This document shows, in pieces, positions 2,987-58,600 of a stretch of 64,000 nucleotides of DNA. The DNA comes from an uncultured Flavobacteriaceae bacterium (GTDB lineage: Bacteria; Bacteroidota; Bacteroidia; Flavobacteriales; Flavobacteriaceae): positions 1-64,000 of the forward strand of contig CALDYU010000018.1 of the NCBI GenBank assembly GCA_937944485.1, given 5' to 3'. The notes beneath the pieces were generated by a model that was not told the DNA's origin, ran no database searches, and saw only the letters and a program-made list of their open reading frames with translations. Every line of letters starts with the position of its first letter. The first letter of the stretch is position 1. The position numbers and the translations under genes were made by a program.

Positions 2987-4171
2987 CTATTCAACGCCAC
3001 CTTTTACACTGTCTTGCCATTCCTTTAAAGCATCCCATTTACCATCAGCCGCCATTTTAGCTTGTTTTGGCCATGAGGTGGGATCAAGATGTGCCATTCT
3101 CGAACTAGCTTCAGTCAAAATTTCTTTCATTTTATCGGCCTTCGCTTTTGCAACTTTTGCAAAAGTATCTAAACCAGCATTTGATAACGCCTCAGCGGCC
3201 TTAGGACCAACACCTTCAATTTTAGTTAGGTCGTCATCACCTTTAGTACTTTTTGACTTTGCCGGAGCTTTTTTAGGTGCGGCTTCTTTTTTAGCCGGCT
3301 TTTTTTCCTTTTTAGCCTCAACTTTAACCTCTTCTTTTACAGGAGCAGGAGCTTCAGTCTTTACTTCTTTTTTGGCAGTATCTTTTTCTTCGGAAGCAGC
3401 TTCTTCCTTGGCTGCTACTTTAGGAGCTTCTTCTGCTTCTGCTTTCGTTTCTTGCTTCCCCTCATTACCAGCTTGCTTTTCTGATTTACGTTCAGTTAAA
3501 CCTTCAGCTATGGCATTGGTGACCTCAGTCATTATAATATTGATCGATTTTGAAGCATCGTCATTTGACGGGATTAAATAATCTACGTCACGTGGATCAG
3601 AATTTGTATCTACCATTGCGAAGATCGGAATATTCAATTTTTGAGCTTCCTTTACTGCAATATGCTCACGCATTGTGTCTACTACGAATAAAGCGCCTGG
3701 TAAGCGTGTCATTTCAGAGATTGAACCTAAGTTTTTTTCTAATTTTTGACGTAAACGATCAACTTGTAAACGCTCTTTTTTCGATAATGTTAAGAAAGTA
3801 CCGTCTTTTTTCATTCGATCAATCATGGCCATTTTTTTAACCGCCTTACGAATGGTTACGAAATTGGTTAACATTCCGCCAGGCCATCTTTCGGTAATAT
3901 ATGGCATGTTGACGTTAGCCACTTTTTCAGCAACAATGTCTTTTGCTTGTTTTTTAGTAGCTACAAAAAGTATTTTTCTACCTGATGCTGCGATTTTTTT
4001 TAGGGCTTCGTTAGCCTCATCTAATTTTGCAACCGTTTTGTACAAATTGATAACGTGAATTCCGTTACGCTCCATGTAGATATAGGGCGCCATGTTGGGA
4101 TTCCACTTTCTGGTGAGGTGTCCAAAATGCACACCTGCTTCTAATAAATCTTTTACTTCGACTTTCGCCAT
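2987..4171 (-). CDS. rpsB: 30S ribosomal protein S2 with C-terminal HhH extension
   Basis: Residues 1 to about 232 are a complete S2, the 30S protein near the mRNA exit side of the small subunit: AGVHFGHLTRKWNP, ITERWPGGMLTNF and ALFVVDTMREHIAVKEA are all present. Ordinary S2 is about 230-260 residues, but this protein is 394. Residues 233-310 form a Lys/Ala/Glu/Pro-rich low-complexity linker. Residues 312-392 form a compact helix-hairpin-helix-like module (DDLTKIEGVGPKAAEALSNA, then a conserved SWPKQAK). The same module type ends ActC at 33233-33433. The frame is uninterrupted and base use in the linker does not stand out, so this looks like a real extension and not a frameshift. The tail's function is unknown. 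Confidence 0.95.
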   Translation of the reverse strand: MAKVEVKDLLEAGVHFGHLTRKWNPNMAPYIYMERNGIHVINLYKTVAKLDEANEALKKIAASGRKILFVATKKQAKDIVAEKVANVNMPYITERWPGGMLTNFVTIRKAVKKMAMIDRMKKDGTFLTLSKKERLQVDRLRQKLEKNLGSISEMTRLPGALFVVDTMREHIAVKEAQKLNIPIFAMVDTNSDPRDVDYLIPSNDDASKSINIIMTEVTNAIAEGLTERKSEKQAGNEGKQETKAEAEEAPKVAAKEEAASEEKDTAKKEVKTEAPAPVKEEVKVEAKKEKKPAKKEAAPKKAPAKSKSTKGDDDLTKIEGVGPKAAEALSNAGLDTFAKVAKAKADKMKEILTEASSRMAHLDPTSWPKQAKMAADGKWDALKEWQDSVKGGVE

Positions 4172-27085: not shown

Positions 27086-28426
27086 ATGAAAAAGGTGACA
27101 TACCGCAATCGAATTTCTAAAGTTTTAGGGTTCAGTTTATTAGCTTTTCTTCTCACTACAATTTCACTTTTCGCTCAAGTTGAGGTCGCTGCATCGACTA
27201 CAGAAAGTGCTGCAGACACCGCTGGAGGAGACCCGGTTCAGGGGAAGGCAATCTTTAATCAAAATTGTGCTACTTGCCATAAATTGGTTGGTCCGCATAC
27301 AGGGCCAGAATTGGCAAATGTTGAGGATAGATTAGCTAAAGAAGGTTTAGATAGAGAATGGATATACGCTTGGGTAAAAAATAGTGCTAAGGTCATAAAG
27401 TCAGGTGATGTTTATGCCAACAAAATATTCAATGAATACAAGCAGACGGCAATGACTGCTTTTCCTACGCTTTCAAATACTGATATTGATAATATTTTGG
27501 CCTATACGGCTGCTCCGCCTCCAGCACCTCCAACTCTAAGGACAGAAGGTCCTAATGGTGAGCCAGTAGCGTCATCGGGGATATCAAATGAAATTATACT
27601 TTGGGCATTAGCCTTTGTTTTTGCTATGCTGGTGTTTATGTTGATGTCTGTCAATAAAACACTACGCAGTGTGTTGCAAGAAAATGGTGTTGATGTAGAA
27701 AAAGAAAGTCCGAAAGGCTTGCCGCTTTGGAAGGCTTTCGCAAAAAATCATTTTCTAGTTTTAGTGTCGGTAATTTTCTTGTTGCTCGGCAGTGCCTATT
27801 TTGCCTATGGGTGGATGATGCAAGTGGGAGTAGATCAAGGTTATGAACCTGTTCAACCAATTCATTATTCGCATAGAATACACGCAGGGGATAATGAGAT
27901 AGAATGTAAATACTGCCATTCTTCAGCACGTAAATCAAAACATTCTGGTATTCCTTCCCTGAATGTTTGTATGAATTGTCACAAAACAATTTCTGAAGTC
28001 GGCCCTGCTACTTTAGCAGAAGGAAAACAATACGGAGTTGATTACAATAAAGAAATCGCGAAATTATATGAAGCTGTAGGCTGGGAAGTAGAGACGCAAT
28101 CATATACTGGTGAAACGCAACCCATAGAATGGATACGCATTCATAACTTGCCTGATTTTGCATATTTCAATCATTCACAGCACGTTGAAGTGGGTAAAGT
28201 AGAATGTCAGACCTGTCATGGTCCTGTTGAGGAAATGGAGATAATGTCGCAGTTCTCTTCATTGACAATGGGCTGGTGTGTGAATTGCCACAGAGAAACG
28301 AATGTGCAAACCGAGGGTAACCCGTATTATGCTAAAATTCACGAAGAGCTTTCAAAGAAATATAAAGTCAAAACTTTAACTGCTGCACAAATGGGTGGCT
28401 TAGAGTGCGGTAAGTGTCACTATTAA
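27086..28426 (+). CDS. actA: Alternative complex III subunit ActA, multiheme cytochrome c with extra monoheme domain
   Basis: The 446-residue protein carries six CxxCH heme sites. After a signal-type helix (about residues 11-30), a monoheme cytochrome c domain occupies 48-145 (CATCH at 61-65; Met in TAMTAFP as likely axial ligand). Two membrane helices follow (about 168-190 and 221-246), then the pentaheme domain with CKYCH 274, CMNCH 295, CQTCH 374, CVNCH 398 and CGKCH 441. In alternative complex III, ActA carries electrons from the ActB/ActC quinol site to cytochrome c or oxidase on the periplasmic side. The pentaheme part is standard; whether the N-terminal domain is common in relatives I cannot check. 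It starts the act-cox operon. Confidence 0.93.
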   Translation: MKKVTYRNRISKVLGFSLLAFLLTTISLFAQVEVAASTTESAADTAGGDPVQGKAIFNQNCATCHKLVGPHTGPELANVEDRLAKEGLDREWIYAWVKNSAKVIKSGDVYANKIFNEYKQTAMTAFPTLSNTDIDNILAYTAAPPPAPPTLRTEGPNGEPVASSGISNEIILWALAFVFAMLVFMLMSVNKTLRSVLQENGVDVEKESPKGLPLWKAFAKNHFLVLVSVIFLLLGSAYFAYGWMMQVGVDQGYEPVQPIHYSHRIHAGDNEIECKYCHSSARKSKHSGIPSLNVCMNCHKTISEVGPATLAEGKQYGVDYNKEIAKLYEAVGWEVETQSYTGETQPIEWIRIHNLPDFAYFNHSQHVEVGKVECQTCHGPVEEMEIMSQFSSLTMGWCVNCHRETNVQTEGNPYYAKIHEELSKKYKVKTLTAAQMGGLECGKCHY

Positions 28427-28458: not shown

Positions 28459-31400
28459 ATGGCATCAAACAAAAAATATTGGAAAAGCGAGGCGGAGTTA
28501 AATCCTAACGATTCCATTGTTGAGACGCTAAGGCAGAATGAATTTGTTGAAGAAATTCCTGTTGATGAGTTTTTGGGTGATAAAGAAAATTTATCTACTA
28601 CAAATACGAATAGGAGAGATTTTCTGAAATATGTTGGTTTTAGTACTGCAGCTGCCTCTTTAGCTGCCTGTGAAGGGCCAGTTATAAAGTCTATTCCTTA
28701 TGTAGTAGCTCCGGAAAATATTGTTCCTGGGGTAGCAAATTATTATGCAACCACTATCGCTAACGGTTTTGATTTTGCAAGTATCTTGATCAAAACACGT
28801 GAAGGGCGACCAATTAAAGTTGAGAATAATAAAGAAGCTAAAGTTGCTGGTGGAGCAAATGCTCGTGTACAGGCTTCAGTTTTATCCTTATATGATAGTA
28901 CAAGACTGCAAGGGCCAAAATCTGGAGCAGGTGAAGATGTATCTTGGGATGCTATCGATGCCGCAGTAAAAGGAAAATTAAATAGCGGAAAACAAGTTGC
29001 TATTTTAACGCAAACCTATGCAAGTCCGTCTACTTCAAGATTAATTTCAGAATTAAAAGCGGCCAATGAAAATGTACAGCATGTAACCTATGATGCTATT
29101 TCTGAGGAAGCTGCGCTTACGGCTTTTGAAAACCGTTACGGTGAAAGAGCATTGGCAAATTATAATTTTGAAAAAGCAGACGTAATCGTTTCTTTCGGTG
29201 CTGATTTCTTAGGAGATTGGCAAGGTGGTGGTTACGATAGTGGCTACTCTAAAGGTCGTGTGCCACAGCATGGAAAAATGTCTAGGCACGTACAGTTTGA
29301 GGCAAATATGTCATTAACTGGTGCGAATGCGGATAAACGTGTGCCAATCACAGCACAATTTCAAAAAGTAGCATTGGCAAAATTGTATGCCATGTTGAAT
29401 GGTAGCTCTGTAGGTGGTGAATTGCCTTCAGAATCGCAATCTGATGTTCAAAAAGTACTAAACGGAGTAGTTGCGCAAATCAGAAAGAACAAAAGTAAGG
29501 CTGTTGTAGTTTCTGGTATTGATGATGTGAATGTTCAATCGGTTGTTTTAGCGATTAATGAAATGTTGGGCAGTGAAGCTTTTAATGCTTCAACACCCAG
29601 ATATACAAGGCAAGGAAATGTTAAAGCTGTTGAAGGGCTTATAACAGATATGAAAGCAGGTAAGGTTGGGGTATTAATTGTTGATGGCGTTAACCCAATG
29701 TATTCCTTACCCAATGCAGCTGATTTTAAAGAGGGTATTGAAAAGGTAGACCTTTCGGTGACTTTTTCAACCAACTGGAATGAAACAACGGCTGTTTCGA
29801 CATACGCAGCTGCATCAAACCATTATTTAGAATCTTGGGGTGATGCGCAAATAATGAAAGGGCATTTTACTATTATGCAGCCTACTATCAAAGAATTGTT
29901 TGATACCAGACAATTTCAATCCGCTATGTTAAAGTGGATGGGTAGTAATCAAAGCTATTACGAGTATATCAAAGAAACATGGAATACTTCTATTTTAAAT
30001 GGAAGTGATTTTAATAAAGCCGTGCATGACGGAGTTTTTGTTACCAGTATTGAAACTATAACAGAAACTAATGAAAATGCTGATCCTGTGATCGTGATGG
30101 TTGCTTCAGATAAAGAAGATGCTGCGATTGCTATGGTGTCAGAAACAGAAGGTGTTGATGTAACTGCAGCGGTTCGAAGCTTATCAAATACTACAGGTAC
30201 TGAAGGTATGGAACTTACCTTGTACTCTAAAGTTGGAATGGGTGATGGGCAGCAAGCAAATAATCCTTGGTTGCAAGAATTTCCAGACCCTATTACGCGA
30301 GTTTCTTGGGATAATTATGTGACCGTTTCAAAAGCAGATGCAGCTCGTTTAGGCTTAATTAACGAGAATGTAGCCAATGGAGGCTTAGACGGTAGTTACG
30401 TTAATCTGACCGTGAATGGTACAACAGTAAAAAATGTTCCAGTTATTATACAGCCGGGTCAAGCTATAGGCACTGTTGGTCTAGCCTTTGGTTATGGTAA
30501 AAAAGCGGGAATGAAAGCAGAAATGCAAACAGGCGTAAATGCTTTCGCTTTGTATCAAAATTTTAATTCCATTCAATCGGTTACAATAGAAAAGGCAAGC
30601 GGAATGCATGAATTCGCATGTGTTCAGTTGCATAAAACCATGATGGGGAGAGGAGATATTATTAAGGAAACAACCTTAGAAATCTTCAATACGAAAGACC
30701 ATGCAGAATGGAATCATGTACCTCAAGTTTCATTAAACCACCAAGAAGTTCCTGCAAACTCAGTTGATCTTTGGGATAGTTTTGATCGTTCTATCGGGCA
30801 TCATTTCAATATGTCTATTGATCTTAATGCTTGTACAGGTTGTGGTGCATGTGTGATTGCTTGTCATGCAGAAAATAATGTACCGGTGGTTGGTAAAGAA
30901 GAAGTACGTAAATCACGAGATATGCACTGGTTGCGTATCGATCGTTACTATTCTTCTGAAGATACATTTGAAGATGATAATATAGAAAAAGATAAGGCAG
31001 ACGGAGTAGGCTTGGGTAATTACATGTTTGGAGATCGTGAAGGCGATGGTTCGCTTTCCACATTTGATAGATTAGAAGACCCATCTGCGAATCCGCAAGT
31101 TGCCTTTCAGCCTGTAATGTGTCAACATTGTAATCACGCGCCTTGTGAAACGGTATGTCCAGTAGCGGCTACCTCACACGGTCGTCAAGGTCAAAATCAA
31201 ATGGCATATAACCGTTGTGTTGGTACACGATATTGCGCTAATAACTGTCCTTATAAAGTACGTCGTTTCAACTGGTTCTTGTACAATAACAATGACGAGT
31301 TTGATTTTCATATGAATAATGATTTGGGTAAAATGGTAGTCAACCCTGATGTTAATGTACGTTCACGTGGTGTTATTGAAAAATGCTCTATGTGTATTCA

Positions 31401-31644
31401 GAAAACGCAAAAAACTATTTTAGATGCGAAGCGTGATGGTCGTATGATTGAAGATGGAGAGTTCCAAACGGCTTGTTCATCAGCTTGTAATAACGGAGCT
31501 ATTGTTTTTGGAGACGTCAATGATAAAGAAAGTAAAGTCGCTGAATTAAAAGATAATGACCGTATGTATCATTTATTGGAGCATGTCGGTACAAAACCAA
31601 ACGTATTCTATCAGGTAAAAGTTAGAAATACAACAGAAGCATAA
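28459..31644 (+). CDS. actB: Alternative complex III subunit ActB (molybdopterin-oxidoreductase-like, Fe-S)
   Basis: The 1061-residue protein fuses a molybdopterin-oxidoreductase-like part (about residues 80-740) to a ferredoxin-like Fe-S part (about 780-1060). The twin-Arg signal NRRDFLKYVGFSTAAASLAAC (residues 51-71, lipobox-like end) marks Tat export. Cys clusters for four Fe-S centres are visible: CTGCGACVIACH, CQHCNHAPCETVCP, CVGTRYCANNCPYKVRRFNW and CSMCIQ with CSSACNNGAIVFGD. In characterised complexes ActB holds Fe-S clusters but no Mo cofactor. It forms the peripheral arm next to the quinol-oxidising ActC. It lies 32 bases after actA. Confidence 0.95.
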   Translation: MASNKKYWKSEAELNPNDSIVETLRQNEFVEEIPVDEFLGDKENLSTTNTNRRDFLKYVGFSTAAASLAACEGPVIKSIPYVVAPENIVPGVANYYATTIANGFDFASILIKTREGRPIKVENNKEAKVAGGANARVQASVLSLYDSTRLQGPKSGAGEDVSWDAIDAAVKGKLNSGKQVAILTQTYASPSTSRLISELKAANENVQHVTYDAISEEAALTAFENRYGERALANYNFEKADVIVSFGADFLGDWQGGGYDSGYSKGRVPQHGKMSRHVQFEANMSLTGANADKRVPITAQFQKVALAKLYAMLNGSSVGGELPSESQSDVQKVLNGVVAQIRKNKSKAVVVSGIDDVNVQSVVLAINEMLGSEAFNASTPRYTRQGNVKAVEGLITDMKAGKVGVLIVDGVNPMYSLPNAADFKEGIEKVDLSVTFSTNWNETTAVSTYAAASNHYLESWGDAQIMKGHFTIMQPTIKELFDTRQFQSAMLKWMGSNQSYYEYIKETWNTSILNGSDFNKAVHDGVFVTSIETITETNENADPVIVMVASDKEDAAIAMVSETEGVDVTAAVRSLSNTTGTEGMELTLYSKVGMGDGQQANNPWLQEFPDPITRVSWDNYVTVSKADAARLGLINENVANGGLDGSYVNLTVNGTTVKNVPVIIQPGQAIGTVGLAFGYGKKAGMKAEMQTGVNAFALYQNFNSIQSVTIEKASGMHEFACVQLHKTMMGRGDIIKETTLEIFNTKDHAEWNHVPQVSLNHQEVPANSVDLWDSFDRSIGHHFNMSIDLNACTGCGACVIACHAENNVPVVGKEEVRKSRDMHWLRIDRYYSSEDTFEDDNIEKDKADGVGLGNYMFGDREGDGSLSTFDRLEDPSANPQVAFQPVMCQHCNHAPCETVCPVAATSHGRQGQNQMAYNRCVGTRYCANNCPYKVRRFNWFLYNNNDEFDFHMNNDLGKMVVNPDVNVRSRGVIEKCSMCIQKTQKTILDAKRDGRMIEDGEFQTACSSACNNGAIVFGDVNDKESKVAELKDNDRMYHLLEHVGTKPNVFYQVKVRNTTEA

Positions 31645-31678: not shown

Positions 31679-33433
31679 ATGGCGTCGCATTACGAAGCAC
31701 CTATTAGAAAACCCTTAGTGACTGGAGACAAAGGTTACCATGATGTAACGGTTGATATTGCTGCTCCTATTGAGGGTCGTGCCAACAAGCATTGGTGGAT
31801 TGTTTTTTCCATTGCTTTGGCTGCTTTTTTATGGGGAGTTGGATGTATCATTTATACGATTTCTACGGGAATTGGTACTTGGGGTCTAAACAAAACAGTA
31901 AACTGGGCTTGGGATATTACCAACTTTGTTTGGTGGGTAGGTATTGGACATGCTGGTACATTGATTTCAGCAGTACTATTGCTTTTTCGACAAAAATGGA
32001 GAATGGCAATTAACCGTTCTGCCGAGGCAATGACTATTTTTTCGGTGATACAAGCTGGACTGTTTCCTATTATTCATATGGGTCGTCCGTGGTTGGCGTA
32101 TTGGGTATTGCCAATTCCGAATCAATTTGGGTCTTTATGGGTGAACTTTAATTCACCATTACTCTGGGATGTATTCGCGATTTCAACCTATTTGTCCGTT
32201 TCACTGGTTTTTTGGTGGACTGGATTATTGCCCGATTTTGCGATGTTACGTGATCGAGCGATTTTACCATTTCAAAAGAAAATTTATAGTTTATTAAGTT
32301 TCGGATGGAGTGGTCGTGCTAAAGATTGGCAGCGATTTGAAGAAGTATCTCTGGTATTAGCTGGGTTAGCTACGCCATTAGTACTTTCTGTACACACCAT
32401 TGTATCGTTTGACTTTGCTACTTCAGTAATTCCGGGATGGCATACAACTATCTTCCCGCCGTATTTTGTAGCTGGTGCTATTTTCTCCGGATTTGCCATG
32501 GTGAATACGCTATTGATTATCATGCGTAAAGTATGTCATTTAGAAGATTATATTACAGTACAGCATATAGAGTTGATGAACATTGTCATCATGATTACAG
32601 GTTCAATAGTGGGCTGTGCCTATATTACAGAGCTATTCATGGCTTGGTATTCTGGAGTTGAATATGAACAATATGCATTCTTAAACAGAGCAACTGGTCC
32701 TTACTGGTGGGCTTATTGGGCAATGATGACCTGTAATGTATTCTCACCACAGTTTATGTGGTCGAAAAAATTACGAACAAGCATTATGTTTTCTTTCTTT
32801 ATTTCGATTGTCGTAAACATAGGAATGTGGTTCGAACGATTTGTAATTATTGTAACTTCATTACATAGAGATTACCTTCCATCTTCGTGGACCATGTTCT
32901 CGCCAACTTTTGTTGATATCGGAATATTTATCGGTACCATCGGATTTTTCTTTGTGTTGTTCTTATTATACGCAAGAACCTTCCCAGTAATTGCTCAAGC
33001 AGAAGTAAAATCGATTTTAAAATCATCAGGTTCGAAGTATAAAAAGTTAAGAGACGCTGGTAAACCTTTGTACGCGGTGAGCGCTGCAGCACCGAAAGTA
33101 AAAAAAGCCACTAACACAAAGGCAGCGGCTGTTGAAGAGATAGTGAAAGAGAAGGCTCCAAAGCCGAAACAAAATAAAAAGGCGTCAAGTTTATTAAGTG
33201 CTATCGGTACTTTTGATCCGAAAACGCAAAAAGCCGATGACTTGAAAAAAGTAAAAGGAATTGGTCCAAAAATGGAGCAAACTTTAAACGATATTGGTAT
33301 TTATACTTTTGCTCAGGTGGGTAAAATGAAAAAGAAAGAATATGATTTGTTAGATTCTTTAACGCAAGCTTTTCCTGGAAGAGCGCAGCGTGATGATTGG
33401 GCAGGTCAAGCAAAAAAATTGAATAAGAATTAA
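31679..33433 (+). CDS. actC: Alternative complex III subunit ActC (NrfD-like) with C-terminal HhH extension
   Basis: Residues 1 to about 455 form the NrfD/PsrC-type membrane subunit with about ten helices that holds the menaquinol site: KHWWIVFSIALAAFLWGVG, NFVWWVGIGHAGTLISAVL, IHMGRPWLAYWVLP and SLHRDYLPSSW. The family usually ends soon after the last helix. Here a basic Lys/Ala/Pro-rich linker (about 461-518) leads to a 66-residue helix-hairpin-helix-like module (519-584: ADDLKKVKGIGPKMEQTLND, TFAQVGK, then DDWAGQAKKL). The module closely resembles the S2 tail at the other end of the window. It should be cytoplasmic if the helix count is right. Its role is unknown. Confidence 0.94.
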   Translation: MASHYEAPIRKPLVTGDKGYHDVTVDIAAPIEGRANKHWWIVFSIALAAFLWGVGCIIYTISTGIGTWGLNKTVNWAWDITNFVWWVGIGHAGTLISAVLLLFRQKWRMAINRSAEAMTIFSVIQAGLFPIIHMGRPWLAYWVLPIPNQFGSLWVNFNSPLLWDVFAISTYLSVSLVFWWTGLLPDFAMLRDRAILPFQKKIYSLLSFGWSGRAKDWQRFEEVSLVLAGLATPLVLSVHTIVSFDFATSVIPGWHTTIFPPYFVAGAIFSGFAMVNTLLIIMRKVCHLEDYITVQHIELMNIVIMITGSIVGCAYITELFMAWYSGVEYEQYAFLNRATGPYWWAYWAMMTCNVFSPQFMWSKKLRTSIMFSFFISIVVNIGMWFERFVIIVTSLHRDYLPSSWTMFSPTFVDIGIFIGTIGFFFVLFLLYARTFPVIAQAEVKSILKSSGSKYKKLRDAGKPLYAVSAAAPKVKKATNTKAAAVEEIVKEKAPKPKQNKKASSLLSAIGTFDPKTQKADDLKKVKGIGPKMEQTLNDIGIYTFAQVGKMKKKEYDLLDSLTQAFPGRAQRDDWAGQAKKLNKN

Positions 33434-33499: not shown

Positions 33500-34030
33500 A
33501 TGGCATCTAAAGTTTTACAAGCCTTTTATAATGATGATGACGTGCTCATGCATGCCGTTAAGAAGGTAAAAGCAGCGAAACATCATATTGAAGAAGTGTA
33601 TTGTCCATTTCCTGTGCACGGATTAGACAAAGCGATGGGCTTAGAACCTACGCGAATTGCGATTACATCTTTCATGTATGGTTTGGTTGGTTTGACAGTA
33701 GCTATTGTAATGATGAATTTTATTATGATTAAAGATTGGCCTCAAGATATTGGAGGTAAACCAAGTTTCTCCTACATTCAAAACATGCCGGCTTTTGTAC
33801 CTATTATGTTTGAGCTTACCGTATTTTTCGCAGCTCATTTAATGGTAATTACCTTTTACCTTCGTAGCAGACTATGGCCATTTAAAAAAGCAGAAAACCC
33901 TGATGTACGAACAACAGATGATCATTTTGTAATGGAAATAGAAGTGCATGACAATGAGAAAGAATTACGCAATTTATTGTCTGATACAGGGGCTGTAGAG
34001 ATTAATATATCAGAAAAAGACCTTCATTAG
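33500..34030 (+). CDS. actD: Alternative complex III subunit ActD (DUF3341)
   Basis: The 176-residue protein starts at the ATG at 33500 (MASKVLQAFYNDDDVLMHAV). The frame is open 24 bases upstream, but only through the hexamer repeat. A soluble N-terminal part (HIEEVYCPFPVHGLDKAMGL) precedes two membrane helices (about residues 52-75 and 96-120), with a soluble acidic C-terminus. This is the DUF3341 plan of ActD. It sits in the membrane core of the complex next to ActC and ActF and has no cofactor. It lies 66 bases after actC and one base before actE. Confidence 0.93.
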   Translation: MASKVLQAFYNDDDVLMHAVKKVKAAKHHIEEVYCPFPVHGLDKAMGLEPTRIAITSFMYGLVGLTVAIVMMNFIMIKDWPQDIGGKPSFSYIQNMPAFVPIMFELTVFFAAHLMVITFYLRSRLWPFKKAENPDVRTTDDHFVMEIEVHDNEKELRNLLSDTGAVEINISEKDLH

Positions 34031-34031
34031 T

Positions 34032-34592
34032 ATGAACAGTATTAAGAAAATAGGAGTTGTATTTGGTTTGCTTTCGGTTCTGGTTTCTTGCCATGATAAG
34101 AGTAAGCCAAACTATCAGTATATGCCTAACATGTATGAACCTGTAGGCTATGAGACCTATCAAGAGGTTGGTATTTCTCCAACTGGTTCGGAAGCCATGC
34201 TTCCACCTGAAAATGCAATACCAAGAGGTTGGATGCCCTATGGTTTTGAGAATACCATAGAAGGAAAAGAACTTGCTAGTTTGCAAGTCAGTCCTTTAGA
34301 TTCTTTGCAGAGAGATGCTAATTTGAAGAAGGGAGCCGAGCTGTACGGTATTTATTGTGCAATTTGCCATGGTCCAAAAGGAAAGGGGCAGGGAACTTTA
34401 GTGAAAAGAGAGAAGATTTTAGGGGTGCCGAGTTATGATGATGCCGGTAGAAATATTACCCTCGGAACCACGTTTCACACCATGCAGTATGGTTTAAACT
34501 CTATGGGTTCTTATGCTTCGCAGATGAACACTGAAGAAATGTGGCAAGTATCAGAATATGTCATGCAATTGAAACAAGATTTAACTAAATAA
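34032..34592 (+). CDS. actE: Alternative complex III subunit ActE, monoheme cytochrome c lipoprotein
   Basis: The 186-residue protein has a lipoprotein signal (FGLLSVLVSC, Cys at about 17), so it is anchored at the periplasmic face. A region with PNMYEPVGYETYQEV and PRGWMPYGF precedes the cytochrome c domain: GAELYGIYCAICHGPKGKGQG holds the single CxxCH site, and TFHTMQYGLNSMGSYASQM supplies the likely Met axial ligand. It continues the heme wire of ActA towards the oxidase. The start lies one base after the actD stop. Confidence 0.94.
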   Translation: MNSIKKIGVVFGLLSVLVSCHDKSKPNYQYMPNMYEPVGYETYQEVGISPTGSEAMLPPENAIPRGWMPYGFENTIEGKELASLQVSPLDSLQRDANLKKGAELYGIYCAICHGPKGKGQGTLVKREKILGVPSYDDAGRNITLGTTFHTMQYGLNSMGSYASQMNTEEMWQVSEYVMQLKQDLTK

Positions 34593-34609: not shown

Positions 34610-35947
34610 ATGTACACGGTTTCAAACAGATTAAAAATTGGTGCTATCATTTTAATGATTGCCGGGTTTGCCCTGACGTTTTATGGCTTTTATGCTGCAC
34701 CCAAAACGGTAGCACAATCTAAGGAAATGCTCAAAAGCCATGGCGATGGTCACGGTGAATCGCATGGAGCGGAAGTAACGGTTGTTGATGAAGGGCATGG
34801 TTCGTATTCAGAAAAAGCTGGTGGTCATACGATGACTGAGGCGGAGCATGATGAACATGTATTTCACCAATTAAGTAATAAACCTTGGGCAGCAGTCTAC
34901 GTGGCGGCTTTCTTTTTCTTTATGATAGCTCTAGGGGTATTGGCTTTTTACGCCATTCAAAGGGCAGCCCAAGCTGGCTGGTCTCCGCTACTCTTTAGAG
35001 TCATGGAAGGGATTACATCGTATATTGTACCCGGTGGTATTATCGTATTTGTCATTTTGGTATTATCGGTAATGCATCAAAATCATTTATTCGTATGGAT
35101 GGATAAAACTGTCGTTGCAAAAGATGCTTTATTACAAGGCAAAGCAGGCTACTTAAACCCAACCTTCTTCTTGATTCGTGCCGCGATCTTTTTAGCAGGA
35201 TGGATTGGTTATAGAGAGTATTCAAGAAAATTATCATTGGCCCAAGATGAATCAGATGACAATTCAAATTTTAAATTGAACTTTAGAATTTCGGCAGCAT
35301 TTTTAGTCTTTTATTTAATTTCGGAATCAATCATGTCTTGGGACTGGATTATGAGTGTTGATCCACACTGGTTTAGTACCCTCTTTGGCTGGTACATTTT
35401 TGCGAGTATGTTCGTTTCTGGTATAACAGTAATCGCTATGGTTACTATTTATCTGAAGTCTAAAGGATATCTAGAAGAAGTAAATGATAGCCATATTCAT
35501 GACTTGGCTAAATTTATGTTTGGCATCAGTATTTTCTGGACCTACCTATGGTTTTCACAATTTATGTTGATTTGGTATGCCAATATTCCAGAAGAAGTAA
35601 CTTACTATATCACACGAATAGAAGATTATAATCTGCCATTTTTTGGTATGGTAGCAATGAACTTTTTGTTTCCAGTTTTATTATTAATGAATAGTGATTA
35701 CAAACGATTAAATTGGTTTGTGGTAATGGCAGGTATTGTCATTCTTGCTGGTCATTATATGGATATATTCAACGCCATTATGCCGGCTACCGTTGGCGAC
35801 CAATGGTATATTGGTATTCCTGAGATTGGAGCAATATTATTTTTTGCAGGCTTGTTTATTTTCTGGATTTTTAGGGCTTTGGCCGCTGCGCCTTTACAGC
35901 CTAAACGAAATCCATTTATTGAAGAAAGCAGACATTTTCATTATTAA
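34610..35947 (+). CDS. actF: Alternative complex III subunit ActF (NrfD-like)
   Basis: The 445-residue membrane protein is the second NrfD-like subunit and has about ten helices. After the first helix (KIGAIILMIAGFALTFYGFY) comes a His/Gly/Glu-rich periplasmic loop (about residues 44-86, with eleven His in forms such as HGDGHGESHGAE). Core segments include ESIMSWDWIMSVDPHWFSTL, FWTYLWFSQFMLIWYANIPEE and FNAIMPATVGDQW. ActF resembles ActC but is not thought to be the main quinol site. It lies 17 bases after actE and 30 before coxB. Confidence 0.94.
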   Translation: MYTVSNRLKIGAIILMIAGFALTFYGFYAAPKTVAQSKEMLKSHGDGHGESHGAEVTVVDEGHGSYSEKAGGHTMTEAEHDEHVFHQLSNKPWAAVYVAAFFFFMIALGVLAFYAIQRAAQAGWSPLLFRVMEGITSYIVPGGIIVFVILVLSVMHQNHLFVWMDKTVVAKDALLQGKAGYLNPTFFLIRAAIFLAGWIGYREYSRKLSLAQDESDDNSNFKLNFRISAAFLVFYLISESIMSWDWIMSVDPHWFSTLFGWYIFASMFVSGITVIAMVTIYLKSKGYLEEVNDSHIHDLAKFMFGISIFWTYLWFSQFMLIWYANIPEEVTYYITRIEDYNLPFFGMVAMNFLFPVLLLMNSDYKRLNWFVVMAGIVILAGHYMDIFNAIMPATVGDQWYIGIPEIGAILFFAGLFIFWIFRALAAAPLQPKRNPFIEESRHFHY

Positions 35948-35977: not shown

Positions 35978-37039
35978 ATGACTACAGTATTAACTTTAGC
36001 TGTTTTAGCACTAGTAGCAATTGCGATCTGGCAAATGACCAAGATTTTCGAATTGTCTCAACTAAAAGCCGAACGCGCCCAAATTGCGAATGATAATGAT
36101 AATAGAAAAAATGGGTATATGCTGTTTGCCTTTATGGTATTTACCTATCTAATTACTATTTTCTGCTTCTGGAAGTATACAAAATTCTTGCTACCCGAAG
36201 CTTCTTCTGCGCATGGTGAGGAATATGATTTTTTAATGTTGGTGTCTTTTATCATCATTTTTATTGTGCAGTTTATTACACAGTTTTTGCTGCATTATTT
36301 TGGTTATAAATACAGAGGAAAAAAAGGCAATAAAGCATTGTTTTATGCGGATAATGATCGTTTAGAATTAATATGGACAATTATACCTGTTATCGTTTTA
36401 GCGGGTTTAATTCTTTGGGGTTTATATACATGGACAAACATCATGGAGGTTAATGATGAAGATGATCCTTTAATCGTAGAATTGTACGCGCAACAATTTC
36501 AATGGACAGCAAGATACGGCGGAACTGATAATGTGCTTGGAGAAGCAAATGTTCGTATGATCGATATTGATAAAGCAAACGTTCTTGGTTTAGATGAATC
36601 AGATTCGTATTCTGCTGATGACGTGATTGTACGTGAATTACATTTGCCGGTAGGTAGAAAAGTTAATTTCTATATGCGTTCGCAAGATGTATTGCATTCA
36701 GCATATATGCCGCACTTTAGGGCACAAATGAATTGTGTGCCAGGTATGACAACAGAATTTTCGTTTACGCCAACCAAAACAACAGCTGAGTTTAGAAAAG
36801 AACCCGATGTTATTGATAAGGTGGTGCGTACGAATAAAATTCGAGCGGAAAGAGCTGCTAAAGGAGAAGAGAATTCAGAGCCTTGGGAGTATGATTATAT
36901 TTTACTGTGTAATAAAATATGTGGTAAATCGCATTACAATATGCAGATGAAAATTATTGTAGAAACTCAAGAAGAATATGATGCTTGGATGAAGGAACAA
37001 AAAACCTTTAGTCAAACGATGAATCCCGCAGAACAATAG
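35978..37039 (+). CDS. coxB: Cytochrome c oxidase subunit II (CuA)
   Basis: The 353-residue protein contributes the CuA centre that takes electrons from cytochrome c or ActE/ActA. Four hydrophobic N-terminal segments are visible (about residues 1-20, 45-65, 82-110, 132-155); the canonical subunit has two. The cupredoxin domain follows, with the CuA ligands: His in DVLHSAYMPHFRAQ, then CNKICGKSHYNM, which gives C-x3-C-x3-H-x2-M. The position usually occupied by Glu between the two Cys is Lys. It is followed by coxA after 41 bases. Subunit III and assembly factors are not in this window. Confidence 0.95.
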   Translation: MTTVLTLAVLALVAIAIWQMTKIFELSQLKAERAQIANDNDNRKNGYMLFAFMVFTYLITIFCFWKYTKFLLPEASSAHGEEYDFLMLVSFIIIFIVQFITQFLLHYFGYKYRGKKGNKALFYADNDRLELIWTIIPVIVLAGLILWGLYTWTNIMEVNDEDDPLIVELYAQQFQWTARYGGTDNVLGEANVRMIDIDKANVLGLDESDSYSADDVIVRELHLPVGRKVNFYMRSQDVLHSAYMPHFRAQMNCVPGMTTEFSFTPTKTTAEFRKEPDVIDKVVRTNKIRAERAAKGEENSEPWEYDYILLCNKICGKSHYNMQMKIIVETQEEYDAWMKEQKTFSQTMNPAEQ

Positions 37040-37080
37040 ATTTTACAAAATTTGATTAATAAAATAAAGAATATTTGATT

Positions 37081-38907
37081 ATGTCAGCAGAAGGACACGA
37101 ACACGGGGATGACCACGGCCATGATGATGGACATCACCACCACAAAGAAACCTTTGTAACCAAATATATTTTTAGCCAAGATCATAAAATGATCTCAAAG
37201 CAATATTTGATTACGGGTTTGATAATGGGGTTCATTGGTATTGCCATGTCCTTATTATTCAGAATGCAAATTGCATGGCCAGGACAAGAGTTTCCTATTT
37301 TTGAGGCAATCCTTGGTAAATGGGCGCCAGGAGGTGTCATGGATGCTGATATGTATTTGGCATTGGTAACTATTCACGGTACCATTATGGTATTTTTTGT
37401 TTTGACCGCAGGCCTTTCAGGAACCTTTAGTAACCTATTGATTCCGCTACAAATTGGAGCACGGGATATGGCATCTGGTTTCTTGAATATGTTGTCTTAT
37501 TGGATGTTCTTCTTGTCTAGTGTGATTATGGTGATATCACTCTTTGTAGAAGCAGGACCTGCCGCCGCTGGCTGGACAATTTACCCGCCCCTAAGTGCGT
37601 TGCCTATGGCGCAACCAGGTTCAGGTATGGGTATGACCTTATGGCTCGTTTCAATGGCTATATTCATTGCTTCCTCATTATTAGGTTCCTTGAATTATAT
37701 TGTAACCGTAATAAACTTGAGAACAAAGGGAATGTCAATGACAAGATTGCCATTGACAATTTGGGCCTTTTTTGTTACAGCGATTATTGGTGTAATTTCT
37801 TTCCCAGTTTTACTTTCTGCGGCCTTGTTGTTGATCATGGATAGAAGTTTCGGAACTTCTTTTTTCCTTTCAGATATCTTTATTCAAGGTGAAGTTTTAC
37901 ATTATCAAGGAGGATCACCCGTTTTGTACGAACATTTATTTTGGTTTTTAGGACATCCTGAGGTATATATTGTTTTGCTTCCGGCTTTGGGTATTACTTC
38001 TGAAGTCATGTCTACGAATGCACGTAAGCCCATTTTTGGATATCGGGCTATGGTTGCCTCAATATTGGCGATTGCGTTCTTATCAACGATTGTATGGGGT
38101 CACCATATGTTTATTTCAGGTATGAATCCGTTTCTTGGTTCCGTCTTTACATTTACAACCCTTTTAATCGCTATTCCATCGGCGGTAAAAGCCTTTAATT
38201 ATATCACAACCCTTTGGAAAGGTAATTTGCAGCTCAATCCTGCTATGTTGTTTTCTATAGGTTTGGTATCTACTTTTATCACAGGTGGTTTAACAGGAAT
38301 TATTCTTGGTGATAGCACCTTAGATATTAACGTACATGACACCTATTTCGTAGTGGCTCACTTTCACTTAGTAATGGGTATTTCCGCACTTTACGGTTTG
38401 TTTGCAGGGGTTTATCATTGGTTCCCGAAAATGTTTGAAGGGCGAATGATGAATAAAAATATGGGTTATGTGCATTTTTGGGTAACTGCCGTCTGTGCCT
38501 ATGGCGTATTCTTTCCCATGCACTTTGTAGGTATGGCAGGTGTGCCAAGGCGGTATTATGAAAATACAGCCTTCCCAATGTTTGATGAATTGACCGACGT
38601 TCAAGTGCTAATGACAGTCTTTGCATTGGTTGCTGGTGCTGCACAGTTGTTATTTGCATATAACTTTATTGCTAGTATTTTCACAGGTAAAAAGGGCCCT
38701 AAGAATCCATGGGATTCTAATACATTGGAATGGACAGCAGAAGTAAAGCATATACATGGCAATTGGGATGGACCAATACCTCATGTACATCGTTGGGCAT
38801 ATGATTATAGCAAAGTTGATGAAAATGGAGAGTATATCATACCTGGGCAAGATTTTGTACCGCAAACAGTTCCTTTACAGAAAGATGAAGAAGAACTACA
38901 GCATTAG
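37081..38907 (+). CDS. coxA: Cytochrome c oxidase subunit I (heme-copper)
   Basis: The 608-residue protein starts at the ATG at 37081; a TTG two codons upstream is an unlikely start. The first 25 residues are very His/Asp-rich (EGHEHGDDHGHDDGHHHHKE). Twelve helices follow. Heme and copper ligands are present: LVTIHGTIMVFF, WFLGHPEVYIVLLPALG (with the His-Tyr crosslink pair and the A-family Glu), WGHHMFISGM, and HDTYFVVAHFHLVMG (two hemes' His). The enzyme reduces O2 to water and pumps protons as partner of alternative complex III. A strong terminator after it closes the operon. Confidence 0.97.
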   Translation: MSAEGHEHGDDHGHDDGHHHHKETFVTKYIFSQDHKMISKQYLITGLIMGFIGIAMSLLFRMQIAWPGQEFPIFEAILGKWAPGGVMDADMYLALVTIHGTIMVFFVLTAGLSGTFSNLLIPLQIGARDMASGFLNMLSYWMFFLSSVIMVISLFVEAGPAAAGWTIYPPLSALPMAQPGSGMGMTLWLVSMAIFIASSLLGSLNYIVTVINLRTKGMSMTRLPLTIWAFFVTAIIGVISFPVLLSAALLLIMDRSFGTSFFLSDIFIQGEVLHYQGGSPVLYEHLFWFLGHPEVYIVLLPALGITSEVMSTNARKPIFGYRAMVASILAIAFLSTIVWGHHMFISGMNPFLGSVFTFTTLLIAIPSAVKAFNYITTLWKGNLQLNPAMLFSIGLVSTFITGGLTGIILGDSTLDINVHDTYFVVAHFHLVMGISALYGLFAGVYHWFPKMFEGRMMNKNMGYVHFWVTAVCAYGVFFPMHFVGMAGVPRRYYENTAFPMFDELTDVQVLMTVFALVAGAAQLLFAYNFIASIFTGKKGPKNPWDSNTLEWTAEVKHIHGNWDGPIPHVHRWAYDYSKVDENGEYIIPGQDFVPQTVPLQKDEEELQH

Positions 38908-55024: not shown

Positions 55025-55606
55025 ATGATACATCACCTCAAAGGAAAATTAGTTGAAAAACATCCAACCCATGTGATTATTGAGTGTGATGGTGTTGGTT
55101 ATTTCGTAAACATATCACTGCATACTTTTTCAAAATTGCCTAGTGGCGAATTAATTACTTTATTTACTCACTTGCAAGTTAAAGAAGACTCGCACACGCT
55201 ATTTGGTTTTTCAGAAAAATCTGAACGTGAAATTTTTCGTTTGCTACTATCTGTTTCTGGCATTGGCGCAAGTACTTCGAGAACAATGTTATCTTCTTTA
55301 TCGCCTGCACAAATTAGAGATGCCATTGCTAACGGTGATGTACCTACAATACAGTCTATCAAGGGTATAGGTGCGAAAACAGCACAAAGAGTAATTTTAG
55401 ACCTTAGAGACAAGGTTTTAAAAGTCTACGATATTGATGAAGTTTCGCCAAGTTCAAACAATACAAATAAAGATGAAGCGTTATCTGCTTTAGAGGTTCT
55501 TGGGTTCCCCCAAAGGCAAGCTGTAAAAGCAGTGGATAAGGTGTTACTTCAAGACCCCTCGTTAAGTGTGGAGGATATCATAAAACTCGCACTCAAAAAT
55601 TTGTAA
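55025..55606 (+). CDS. ruvA: Holliday junction DNA-binding protein RuvA
   Basis: The 193-residue protein binds four-way junctions as a tetramer and loads RuvB. The N-terminal OB fold begins MIHHLKGKLVEKHPTHVIIE with FTHLQVKEDSHTLFGF. Two HhH motifs follow (LLLSVSGIGASTSRTML and IQSIKGIGAKTAQRVILDLRDK). The flexible linker (SPSSNNTNKDE) leads to the C-terminal RuvB-binding domain (ALSALEVLGFPQRQAVKAVDKVL). It is not next to ruvB, which is at 42320. It ends 5 bases before sprA. Confidence 0.97.
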   Translation: MIHHLKGKLVEKHPTHVIIECDGVGYFVNISLHTFSKLPSGELITLFTHLQVKEDSHTLFGFSEKSEREIFRLLLSVSGIGASTSRTMLSSLSPAQIRDAIANGDVPTIQSIKGIGAKTAQRVILDLRDKVLKVYDIDEVSPSSNNTNKDEALSALEVLGFPQRQAVKAVDKVLLQDPSLSVEDIIKLALKNL

Positions 55607-55611
55607 TAAGT

Positions 55612-58600
55612 TTGAAAAAAGGGGCAAATAATATACTTAAATCTTCATTTAAGTTTATCTTTCTATTCATTCTATTTTTTGGCGCAGCCGAAACGTCGTA
55701 TGCGCAAGAGACTGAAGAAAGTAACACGAATGAAGAGCAGAAAGATTCGGTACAAACAGGGTTTTCTTTAGGAAGGCTAGTGTTGAAGAACCCGGAGAGC
55801 ATCGTTTCTAAATATATCTATGATGCCGATCTTGATCGCTATATCTACAATGAAAAATTAGGAGATTTTAATATAGGCTATCCTATCATTCTTACCCCAG
55901 CCCAATATTTTGATTTAATAAAAAAGGAGGGTATCAAAAGCTATTTTAAAGAAAAAGCAGATGCCTTATCTGGTAGAAAAGAAGGTAGCGAGGAAGCGCG
56001 AAAAAATTTAAATCCTAAATTTTATGTCAATAATGATTTTTTCGAATCTGTTTTCGGAGGGTCTACTGTTGAAGTAATTCCTCAGGGTTCTGTGGCAATG
56101 GATTTAGGTGTTATTTGGCAGAAAAATGACAACCCTTCCTTATCACCCAGAAACAGAACCAATTTGTCTTTTGATTTTGATCAGCGTATTAGTCTTAGTT
56201 TGTTGGGTAAAATTGGAGAACGATTAGCAGTTAATTTTAACTATGATACTGAAGCGACCTTTGATTTTCAGAATATTGTTAAAATGGATTATACGCCAAC
56301 GGAAGATGATATATTACAGAGTATAGAAGCGGGTAATGTAAGTATGCCATTGAATAGTTCGCTAATTCAAGGAGCACAAAGTTTATTTGGAATAAAAACG
56401 GAGTTTCAATTTGGTAAAACCAAAGTAACTGCCGTTTTATCGAAGCAAGAGTCTCAGAACAATACTGTAGTCGCTCAAGGCGGTGGTACACTTAACGATT
56501 TTACAATTACCGCTCTAGATTATGATGAAGATCGACACTTTTTCTTATCGCAGTATTTTAGAGATAACTATGATGTTGCCTTAGAAAACTATCCGTATAT
56601 ACGAAGTCAAGTACAGATTACACGTCTCGAGGTATGGGTGACCAACCGTGGTCAACTAACCACGAATGTGAGAAATGTGGTGGCGATTCAAGATTTAGGA
56701 GAATCTGACCCTAATAATACCCGTTATGGGCAAACAACGACGCCAGCCGTTGGGTTTTTCCCAGACCCCATGAATCAGTTTCCGAGAAATGATGCCAATA
56801 ATTTTAACCCTAATACGATAGGATCTGGTGCTCTAACGGAGTCGATTCGAGATATTGCCACCGTGGAAAACGGATTTAACGTACCCGGTTATCAGGTAAA
56901 TCAAGGTTTTGATTATGCGATTTTAGAGAATGCTCGAAAATTAGACCCAGGTAGAGATTATGATTTCAATACCCAATTAGGGTATATATCATTGAATCAG
57001 CGTTTGAGTAATGATGAAGTTTTAGGAGTTGCTTTTCAGTATACGGTCAATGGTGAAGTATTTCAGGTTGGTGAGTTTGCGAATGGTGGTATTGATGCTA
57101 CAAGCTTGGCACCAGGAGCAACGCCAATCATTGAGAATAACACATTAATATTAAAACTACTAAAGAGTAACGTAACCAATATTACTGATCCTATTTGGGA
57201 TTTGATGATGAAAAACATTTATGCAACCGGGGCATTTCGTTTGAGTCAAGAAGATTTTAAGATGAATATTTTATATTCTGATCCTACACCTAGAAATTAT
57301 ATCACTCCAGTAGAGGAAGGGCCCGGTTCTGAATGGCCTGATGGCTTGCAAGAACGAATTTTGTTAGATGTATTTAATTTAGACCGATTAAATGCTTACA
57401 ATGATGTACAGCCCGGGGGAGACGGTTTTTTTGATTTTGTACCCGGACTTACGGTGAATACCCAAAACGGATTGATAATTTTCACCAAAACGGAACCTTT
57501 TGGAGAGTTTCTTTTCGATCGATTAGGATCACTTGGTGATTATAATGATGAGTCTACATACAACGCGAATCAAGAACAATATGTGTTTCGTGATATGTAT
57601 GAATTGACAAAAGCGGCGTCATTACAAAATCCAGAAAAGAATAAGTTTTTATTAAAAGGGCGTTACAAGTCTGAAGGAAGCAATGGTATACCTATTGGGG
57701 CATTTAATGTGCCTAGAGGTTCAGTACGTGTTACTGCTGGCGGACGCCAATTACAAGAGGGTATTGATTATACGGTTAATTATGCCGCTGGTACGGTGCA
57801 AATTTTAGATCCAAGTTTAGAAGCTTCAAATATTCCTATTAATATATCGGTAGAAAATAATGCTGTTTTTGGTCAACAGCAAAGAGGTTTTACAGGAATT
57901 AATGTAGAGCATCAAGTGAATAAAAATTTTGTTTTAGGAGGTACCTTCTTAAATTTAAATGAAAGACCATTGACTCAAAAATCTAATTTTGGGGTTGAAC
58001 CTGTAAGCAATACAATTTATGGCTTGAATGGAAATTTTTCAACAGAAGTACCATTCTTAACGCGATTAGCTAATAAATTACCCAATATAGATACTGATGT
58101 GGCTTCGAATCTATCCGTGCGTGCTGAGGTAGCTTGGCTTAAACCGAATTCTCCTAATAACGCTGATTTTCGTGGTGAAACGACCACCTATTTAGATGAT
58201 TTTGAAGGAGCTCAGGCTTTGATTGATATCCGTTCTTCATTGGGTTGGACATTGGCCAGTGTACCTCTAGAGTTTGCTGAAGGTAAGAACGGTCTTGAAA
58301 CTGGTTATGAAAGAGCTAAAATGTCATGGTATACTATTGACCCCATTTTTTATACGAATCAGAGACCAGCTGGTATTTCTGATAGTGACATGTCTAAAAA
58401 TGAAACGCGGCGTATTTTCATAAATCGTCTATTTCAGCAAGACGTCGCTCAAGGACAAACTCAGGTGCAGAATACTTTGAATATCAATTATTTTCCGAAT
58501 GAAAAGGGCCCATATAATAACAATCCAAGTTTCGAAACGGAACAACCAGAAGATAAATGGGCGGGTATTATGCGCCCTCTTAGCAGCACCAATTTTGAAC

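Follow-up and report, generated by a model that had tools for sequence, protein, structure and literature searches.

The window analysed here, i.e. bases 1-64000 of contig C18 (CALDYU010000018.1) from the 3.4 Mb genome of an uncultured Flavobacteriaceae bacterium, encodes ActC, the quinol-oxidising membrane subunit of alternative complex III (ACIII), with a C-terminal tail that is a specific homologue of the tail on the ribosomal protein uS2 encoded in the same window. The shared part is a module of the helix-hairpin-helix (HhH) type, which exists in two subtypes (GR and KW), has been fused repeatedly to unrelated proteins, is under purifying selection on ActC and is repeatedly absent or lost. 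We tentatively suggest that the ActC tail may be a portable device that tethers large assemblies to nucleic acid, a reading that we regard as quite possible rather than probable. The features on which the analysis turns are as follows, with dN/dS denoting the ratio of nonsynonymous to synonymous substitution rates.

31679..33433, forward strand: ActC, NrfD-type quinol-oxidising membrane subunit of ACIII, 584 amino acids (PF03916, E 7e-20)
31679..33010, forward strand: ActC membrane core, residues 1-444, last residues AEVK (alignment to 6btm_C; dN/dS 0.02-0.04)
33011..33184, forward strand: variable linker, residues 445-502, Lys-rich in this genome (identity 0.43; dN/dS 0.22-0.31)
33185..33208, forward strand: conserved helix LLxxIG, residues 503-510, start of the folded tail (ActC alignment; model helix 2-8)
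33233..33430, forward strand: HhH module, GR subtype, residues 519-584, 66 residues (homology, predicted structure, module tree)
33257..33271, forward strand: first hairpin GIGPK, hGhG type (pattern in 46/52 family-sample ActC tails)
33371..33412, forward strand: second conserved motif FPGRAQRDDWAGQA (F-x-G-R in 45/52 and RDDW in 46/52 family-sample ActC tails)
2987..4171, reverse strand: ribosomal protein uS2 (rpsB) with C-terminal tail, 394 amino acids (TIGR01011, E 1e-89; PF00318, E 7e-90)
2990..3238, reverse strand: HhH module of uS2, KW subtype, residues 312-394 (HHH_5, 29.2 bits against a cut-off of 27; module tree)

Homology of the ActC and uS2 tails

The identity of the host protein is clear, as it is an NrfD-type membrane protein encoded within an act-cox operon that matches the Flavobacterium johnsoniae ACIII subunit C (6btm_C, E 1e-290, residues 1-458 aligned) and 6f0k_C (E 1e-180). 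The F. johnsoniae ActC has the same core and stops at 466 amino acids, without the module. In a scan with motif patterns of the module the best 80 of 558 relatives were kept; the nearest named ActC relatives were from Flavobacteriaceae, and all 80 were ActC, which made the scan uninformative on other carriers.

A sequence-only reading of this DNA had placed one and the same module on ActC and on a ribosomal protein, and this was borne out. When the two tails were aligned by the Smith-Waterman method the score was 104 (z 16.7), whereas 5000 shuffles averaged 25.2 (s.d. 4.7) and never exceeded 55. Controls taken from the window scored far lower, with z values of 2.1 (ActC tail) and 1.6 (uS2 tail) against RuvA, itself an HhH protein, and of -0.3 (ActC tail) and 0.9 (uS2 tail) against PolA. 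Given the shuffle test and the low control values, the two tails are specific homologues whose likeness goes beyond two HhH motifs. The coordinates also held, as ADDLKK (residue 519) begins at base 33233 and the open reading frame (ORF) ends at 33433; from the alignment and the model, the folded tail begins slightly upstream, at the conserved LLxxIG helix.

A search of the genome with the ActC tail returned the bL21 tail (E 5.7e-9), ahead of the uS2 tail (1.7e-7) and a fourth protein (4.7e-5), and the next matches, the first to a large transporter-like frame, were at E 0.2 and 8. The same four carriers were recovered with the uS2 tail, and this genome therefore has four copies, namely those on ActC, uS2 and bL21 and one on a membrane protein with a single helix. 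The last is a 188-residue protein with one N-terminal hydrophobic segment, a KW module and an adjoining OmpA-like gene (L004 1198-1764; G000:C5:230832-231089), and membrane-anchored proteins of this type are frequent carriers within the family. Chance likeness of two HhH motifs, which the sequence-only reading had itself named as the outcome that would count against it, is excluded by this search together with the shuffle, RuvA and PolA controls.

Two further parts of that reading stood only in part. The tails had been described as aligning across their length; the first ~62 residues do so, but the uS2 tail has ~20 extra residues that are absent from ActC. In BLASTP, the ActC tail and a uS2 tail begun 6 residues late aligned over just 20 residues (E 1e-5). 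A basic Lys/Ala/Pro linker had been noted before the module; this describes the ActC of this genome (net charge +13) but not ActC tails generally, and the mean net charge of -1.0 over 92 ActC rules out a basic linker as a piece of the conserved module. In these 92 sequences the linker is 59-90 residues long. The linker identity and dN/dS were measured between AEVK and the DDL with which the module opens, a stretch that includes the short LLxxIG helix.

The module on ActC is under purifying selection. Across 57 pairs of GR-type ActC genes dN/dS was 0.03 in the core, 0.25 from AEVK to the module and 0.08 in the module, and mean pairwise identity over 88 sequences was 0.93, 0.43 and 0.77 for core, linker and module respectively. 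The hairpin is invariant in the 88 tails, which were selected, like the 80 named loci, by patterns holding the hairpin or F-x-G-R, so that invariant columns are partly built in. The 52 ActC tails of the family sample are independent of these motif patterns, and there module dN/dS was 0.10, beside the core and linker ranges listed above; the hairpin pattern was kept in 46, F-x-G-R in 45 and RDDW in 46.

Both ActC termini are cytoplasmic in the structure of the Rhodothermus marinus ACIII, according to excerpts of two papers (PMC5928083; PMC8076601). By homology to that complex the ActC tail is predicted to lie on the cytoplasmic side, which would place it in the same compartment as ribosomes and DNA. 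A periplasmic ActC tail, opposite a cytoplasmic uS2 tail, is rejected by the same homology.

Fold, relatives and candidate ligand

The structure of the ActC tail (GR subtype) was predicted and compared over 70 chains. An hGhG hairpin lies between two helices (GIGP at 33257-33271, followed by a helix in the model), and the HhH units are packed together in the predicted structure. With the Pfam model HHH_5 (PF14520) the ActC tail scored 17.6 bits, under the cut-off of 27, and the uS2 tail scored above it; the predicted HhH fold of the ActC tail is based on the hairpin and the modelled packing rather than on this score.

Against the C-terminal parts of NCBIfam models, the ActC tail matched NuoE (E 1e-22), bL21 (2e-14), uS2 (5e-14) and PhaH (1.4e-12, at positions 167-232 of the 234 in NF045508), and further HhH-bearing families only at 0.0016 or weaker. 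The uS2 tail matched bL21 (1.6e-8), PhaH (6e-7) and NuoE (7e-7). In the PDB, the ActC tail matched protein-O of the Dinoroseobacter shibae reaction centre-light-harvesting 1 (RC-LH1) complex (8yy9_O, 6e-16) and a '41 kd complex I subunit' (1e-15), and tails of the NuoE / protein-O type are its closest relatives outside ActC. Like ActC, protein-O is a membrane subunit of an energy-converting complex with the same C-terminal module on a flexible linker; unlike ActC, which is the quinol-oxidising core, it is an accessory two-helix subunit of a photosynthetic complex in Alphaproteobacteria. The NCBI models for NuoE, bL21 and uS2 with a C-terminal extension (NF009040, NF008915/NF008916 and NF008966) place the same module on a respiratory protein and on the same two ribosomal proteins, although NuoE is a subunit of complex I and ActC an integral subunit of ACIII.

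These NCBI models are named after the host protein and not after the module. As a point for annotation, the name 'NADH:ubiquinone oxidoreductase' has been given to a Sinorhizobium meliloti protein, encoded between nuoF and nuoG, that has little in common with NuoE except the tail. A tblastn search of plasmid records found eight with the module, all alphaproteobacterial. The module ends NuoE and a neighbouring protein in a Shinella record, a protein encoded between nuoF and nuoG in an S. meliloti record, and uS2 in a Methylobacterium bullatum record. The NCBIfam model NF051451 (S2 'sunset domain variant') matched the uS2 of the window no further than model position 348 (of 382), and the uS2 tail by itself gave no match to it at E 1; the two tails are not to be equated on this evidence, and a second, different C-terminal add-on to S2 seems to exist.

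A function has been reported for one relative of the ActC tail, PhaH, in a study that was reportedly made by Salinas et al. in 2023 and is known to us through a review and a second paper citing it. In those accounts, as excerpted, the N-terminal end of the Caulobacter crescentus PhaH binds polyhydroxybutyrate (PHB) granules and its C-terminal HhH binds DNA nonspecifically, and the protein spreads the granules along the nucleoid (PMC13052382; likewise PMC12028471), and a haloarchaeal PhaC also bears an HhH (PMC12028471). PhaH resembles ActC in that its homologous module sits on a large assembly, and differs in that its N-terminal part serves granule binding and is no membrane respiratory subunit; the N-terminal part of ActC is NrfD and lacks the phasin domain, so that ActC shares the module and is not a phasin. 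The earlier statement that no function had been described for the module was consequently too strong, at least on these accounts of PhaH. The suggested link between nucleic acid and the inner membrane is consistent with the DNA binding reported for PhaH, and for ActC such a ligand is a prediction.

We propose that the ActC tail belongs to a portable C-terminal (HhH)2 module, carried on a flexible linker, that has been fused repeatedly in at least two bacterial phyla to subunits of large cytoplasm-facing assemblies: ribosomes, complexes of respiration and photosynthesis, storage granules and membrane anchors. The module on ActC would hold ACIII, within the inner membrane, to the nucleoid or some other nucleic acid, while those on uS2 and bL21 would do likewise for ribosomes, so that different assemblies would be spread over one scaffold, each independently. 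Nucleic acid is what we infer to be the likeliest ligand. The broader claim, that in at least two bacterial phyla a single plug-in module fastens ribosomes, ACIII, complex I, photosystems and granules to one scaffold, most likely the nucleoid, seems to us doubtful.

Several observations weigh against the tether. NusA AR2 is a domain that binds proteins. It was the top structural match of the ActC tail among the 70 chains, at ~20% identity (6ib8, the record of which is titled as a SuhB-NusA AR2 complex). Charge is the strongest objection: near-neutral ActC modules (mean net -0.2, pI 6.6, n=88) and acidic ribosomal ones (uS2 mean -4.2, n=6; bL21 -2.9, n=15) are not what would be expected of nonspecific DNA binders, the ActC module of this window having a net charge of +4. 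The tie of the uS2 tail to the PhaH/NuoE group also appears less sharp, as eL32 (2e-5) and RadA (6e-5) follow close behind in NCBIfam and protein-O (0.0026) stands beside RadA (0.007) in the PDB. The tail is absent from ActC in 54 of the 139 family genomes described below, and is hence dispensable. Finally, the protein-O domain, which in Rhodobacterales also occurs in NuoE, an endonuclease and subunit E of ATP synthase, was not traced in the map, and its function is termed obscure (PMC12079452).

The charge pattern leaves as the strongest alternative a module that binds one common protein ligand, e.g. a part of the transcription machinery, as NusA AR2 does, and that would thereby fasten ribosomes and membrane complexes to this protein and not to nucleic acid. 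We consider this rather unlikely. NusA AR2 and the HhH domains of nucleic-acid enzymes share ~20% identity with the ActC tail, and we know of no case in which either forms a C-terminal add-on to unrelated assemblies.

Carriers, subtypes and origins

At least one copy of the module was found at E 1e-6 in 51 of 395 genomes of the phylum, 26 of which had a single copy, and in a denser sample of the family at least 161 of 199 genomes carried it at E 1e-5. The distinct carrier frames numbered 98 and were assigned by motif as 15 bL21, 12 ActC, 6 uS2, 4 bL17, 3 bL27, 2 bS1, 1 uL16 and 55 others, the last with one hydrophobic segment upstream of the module in 43, two in 2 and none in 10. Pfam searches on ten carriers identified four as bL17, two as bL27 and one each as bS1, uL16 and a protein with a glycogen-recognition domain, with HHH_5 alone in the tenth; the host identity of bL21 and uS2 was confirmed on one protein each. 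The ribosomal hosts in the phylum are thus six (bL21, uS2, bL17, bL27, bS1 and uL16). A KW module ends bL27 (L060, L078, L084), bL17 (L075, L100, L106, L116), bS1 (L082, L086) and uL16 (L112) in other families of the phylum, eight of these ten proteins having been checked with Pfam.

Two groups among the remaining carriers may be mentioned. L085, L094, L105 and L072 are glycogen-recognition-like proteins that end in a KW module and have no hydrophobic segment (AMPK1_CBM was confirmed by Pfam in L094 and not in L085). L098, L102 and L104 are membrane-anchored proteins with tandem modules, those of L104 being one of each subtype.

A tree of 100 modules, built on few columns and with 47 of its 97 forks left open, separated the GR and KW subtypes on well-supported branches (96-97). 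The GR subtype is short, with F-x-G-R-x-x-R-D-D-W, and the KW subtype is longer, with G-K-W-D-E-L-K. The ActC tail of the window is of the GR subtype and falls in a well-supported group with four alphaproteobacterial modules; the alphaproteobacterial NuoE, protein-O and a uS2 share this subtype. KW is the subtype of the other three copies in this genome (uS2, bL21 and the membrane-anchored protein). In three Flavobacteriaceae (L114, L117 and L118), bL21 has a GR-type tail in place of KW, so that a single host protein has exchanged one subtype for the other.

ActC itself has a KW tail in two genomes of one genus in family f5, and in the tree of ActC cores these two form a well-supported pair within a well-supported f5 group. 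On these sequence trees the ActC tail arose at least twice, as the well-supported branches of the module tree force two origins, and a single origin for all carriers is excluded by the KW-type tails of the two f5 genomes. Their ActC tails fall together with those on bL27 in the same two genomes (support 83, which is below the well-supported class), and this grouping suggests that gene ends were copied within a genome. Gene-end shuffling, which the sequence-only reading had offered as an origin of the shared tail, gains from this grouping, from the six ribosomal hosts and from the two origins on ActC.

Within Flavobacteriaceae the ActC-core tree required six changes in the state of the ActC tail, at least three of them forced by well-supported branches, and it is equally compatible with a single early gain followed by several losses and with a history of repeated gain. 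One loss was probably by truncation, since the ActC of L020 (G103) retains the linker start typical of its tailed relatives and ends before the module. A profile scan of 54 tail-less ActC loci for decayed remnants of the module found none (E 0.27 at best). On the best tree of 105 genomes, in which many forks are unsupported, the ActC tail changed state 24 times.

Such turnover is what might be seen if gene-end shuffling had left tails at the C-termini of highly expressed genes that are tolerated there but do little, and the many unrelated carriers, the six ribosomal hosts and the ActC-bL27 grouping point the same way. That the module evolves at a dN/dS of 0.08-0.10 against 0.22-0.31 in the linker, and that ActC retains it in 85 of 139 genomes, makes this explanation improbable in our judgement.

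Joint occurrence of the tails, and the surrounding genes

We scored the tails in 139 genomes from 138 genera from match ends and open-frame lengths among the matches listed. ActC was tailed in 85 and uS2 or bL21 in 88; both tails were present in 73 genomes, the ActC tail alone in 12, the ribosomal tail alone in 15 and neither in 39. A ribosomal tail hence accompanied 73 of 85 tailed ActC and 15 of 54 tail-less ones (Fisher p 4e-12, uncorrected for descent). This is the pattern that might be expected if one tail docked to the other, or both to a common receptor, holding tagged ribosomes at tagged membrane proteins. A Pagel-type test, run with a purpose-written script on a weakly resolved tree, also favoured an association (likelihood ratio 41, p 2e-8), with some fitted rates implausibly extreme. 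In addition, 6 of the 12 modules in the ActC-only genomes scored 72-114 bits, compared with 118-147 bits in 40 genomes with both tails (Mann-Whitney p 0.02), these six falling in two regions of the tree.

However, the association was weakened once descent was considered. The trees covered 105 of the 139 genomes, 34 with both tails or too little sequence being omitted, and were poorly resolved; their well-supported branches yielded four independent pairs for the ActC tail (2.8 the same way, 0.3 opposite) and six for the ribosomal tail (2.5 the same way, 0.1 opposite), neither of which was significant. Module dN/dS was not raised in the ActC-only genomes (0.07-0.09, 3-6 pairs). The single-copy carriers (26/51) are also difficult to reconcile with docking, as are 10 of the 12 ActC-only genomes, in which ActC was the only copy found at E 0.001, four of them with an intact module (G396, G405, G445 and G500). 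In the genome of the window, moreover, the ActC (GR) and uS2 (KW) tails differ in subtype. The docking domain suggested in the sequence-only reading, taken as a tail-to-tail link between ribosomes and the membrane, is not supported by these results, and we consider docking in either form highly improbable.

The tail might instead be a local assembly or stability element of ACIII that touches either ActD, at its cytoplasmic domain, or adjacent complexes, its likeness to the ribosomal tails being only historical. For protein-O, an assembly role is a speculation of its authors (PMC12079452). The F. johnsoniae ACIII structure contains the tail-less ActC of 466 amino acids, a fast-evolving linker of 59-90 residues is ill-suited to a fixed contact, and the same module on unrelated carriers would need a separate reason; we therefore see a local role as distinctly unlikely, and return to the tether as the reading we prefer.

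In open-licence PubMed Central we found no paper joining 'alternative complex III' and 'helix-hairpin-helix', and recognised nothing on point among the papers listed for the module, its COG name, its ribosomal carriers or the S2 'sunset domain'. Databases and one paper already contain, openly or by implication, the module, its fold and its alphaproteobacterial carriers. Within the reach of these searches the novelty lies in three points: ActC bears the module and has done so from two origins, six different ribosomal proteins carry it, and two phyla have recruited it in parallel to both ribosomal and respiratory subunits. If the tether were true, a respiratory complex of Flavobacteriaceae would be physically attached to the chromosome beside similarly tagged ribosomes, and the module would offer a general means of placing large assemblies relative to the chromosome, with a bearing on ribosome and respiratory-chain arrangement in Bacteroidota and Alphaproteobacteria. 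Unnoticed 'C-terminal extensions' of ribosomal and energy-complex proteins become, through this analysis, one testable family with a candidate function. Should the tether be wrong, it would still need explaining why two phyla have placed one module on both ribosomal and respiratory subunits.

The genes around actC are listed below; the names ActA, ActB, ActE and ActF were presumed with the help of the usual ACIII gene order.

27086..28426, forward strand: multihaem cytochrome c, ActA-like (PF14522, PF14537)
28459..31644, forward strand: Fe-S subunit, presumably ActB (4Fe-4S Pfam models)
33500..34030, forward strand: ActD (PF11821, E 4e-62)
34032..34592, forward strand: cytochrome c, ActE-like (PF13442, E 3e-10; name by position)
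34610..35947, forward strand: probably ActF (name by position only; no Pfam match at 0.01 and no NCBIfam match at 0.001)
35978..37039, forward strand: cytochrome oxidase subunit II (PF02790, PF00116)
37075..38907, forward strand: cytochrome oxidase subunit I (PF00115, E 3e-136)
55025-55606: RuvA (PF01330, PF14520, PF07499)

Directly after RuvA lies an ORF of 2395 amino acids (55612-62799), which from its size and place we take to be possibly SprA of the type IX secretion system.

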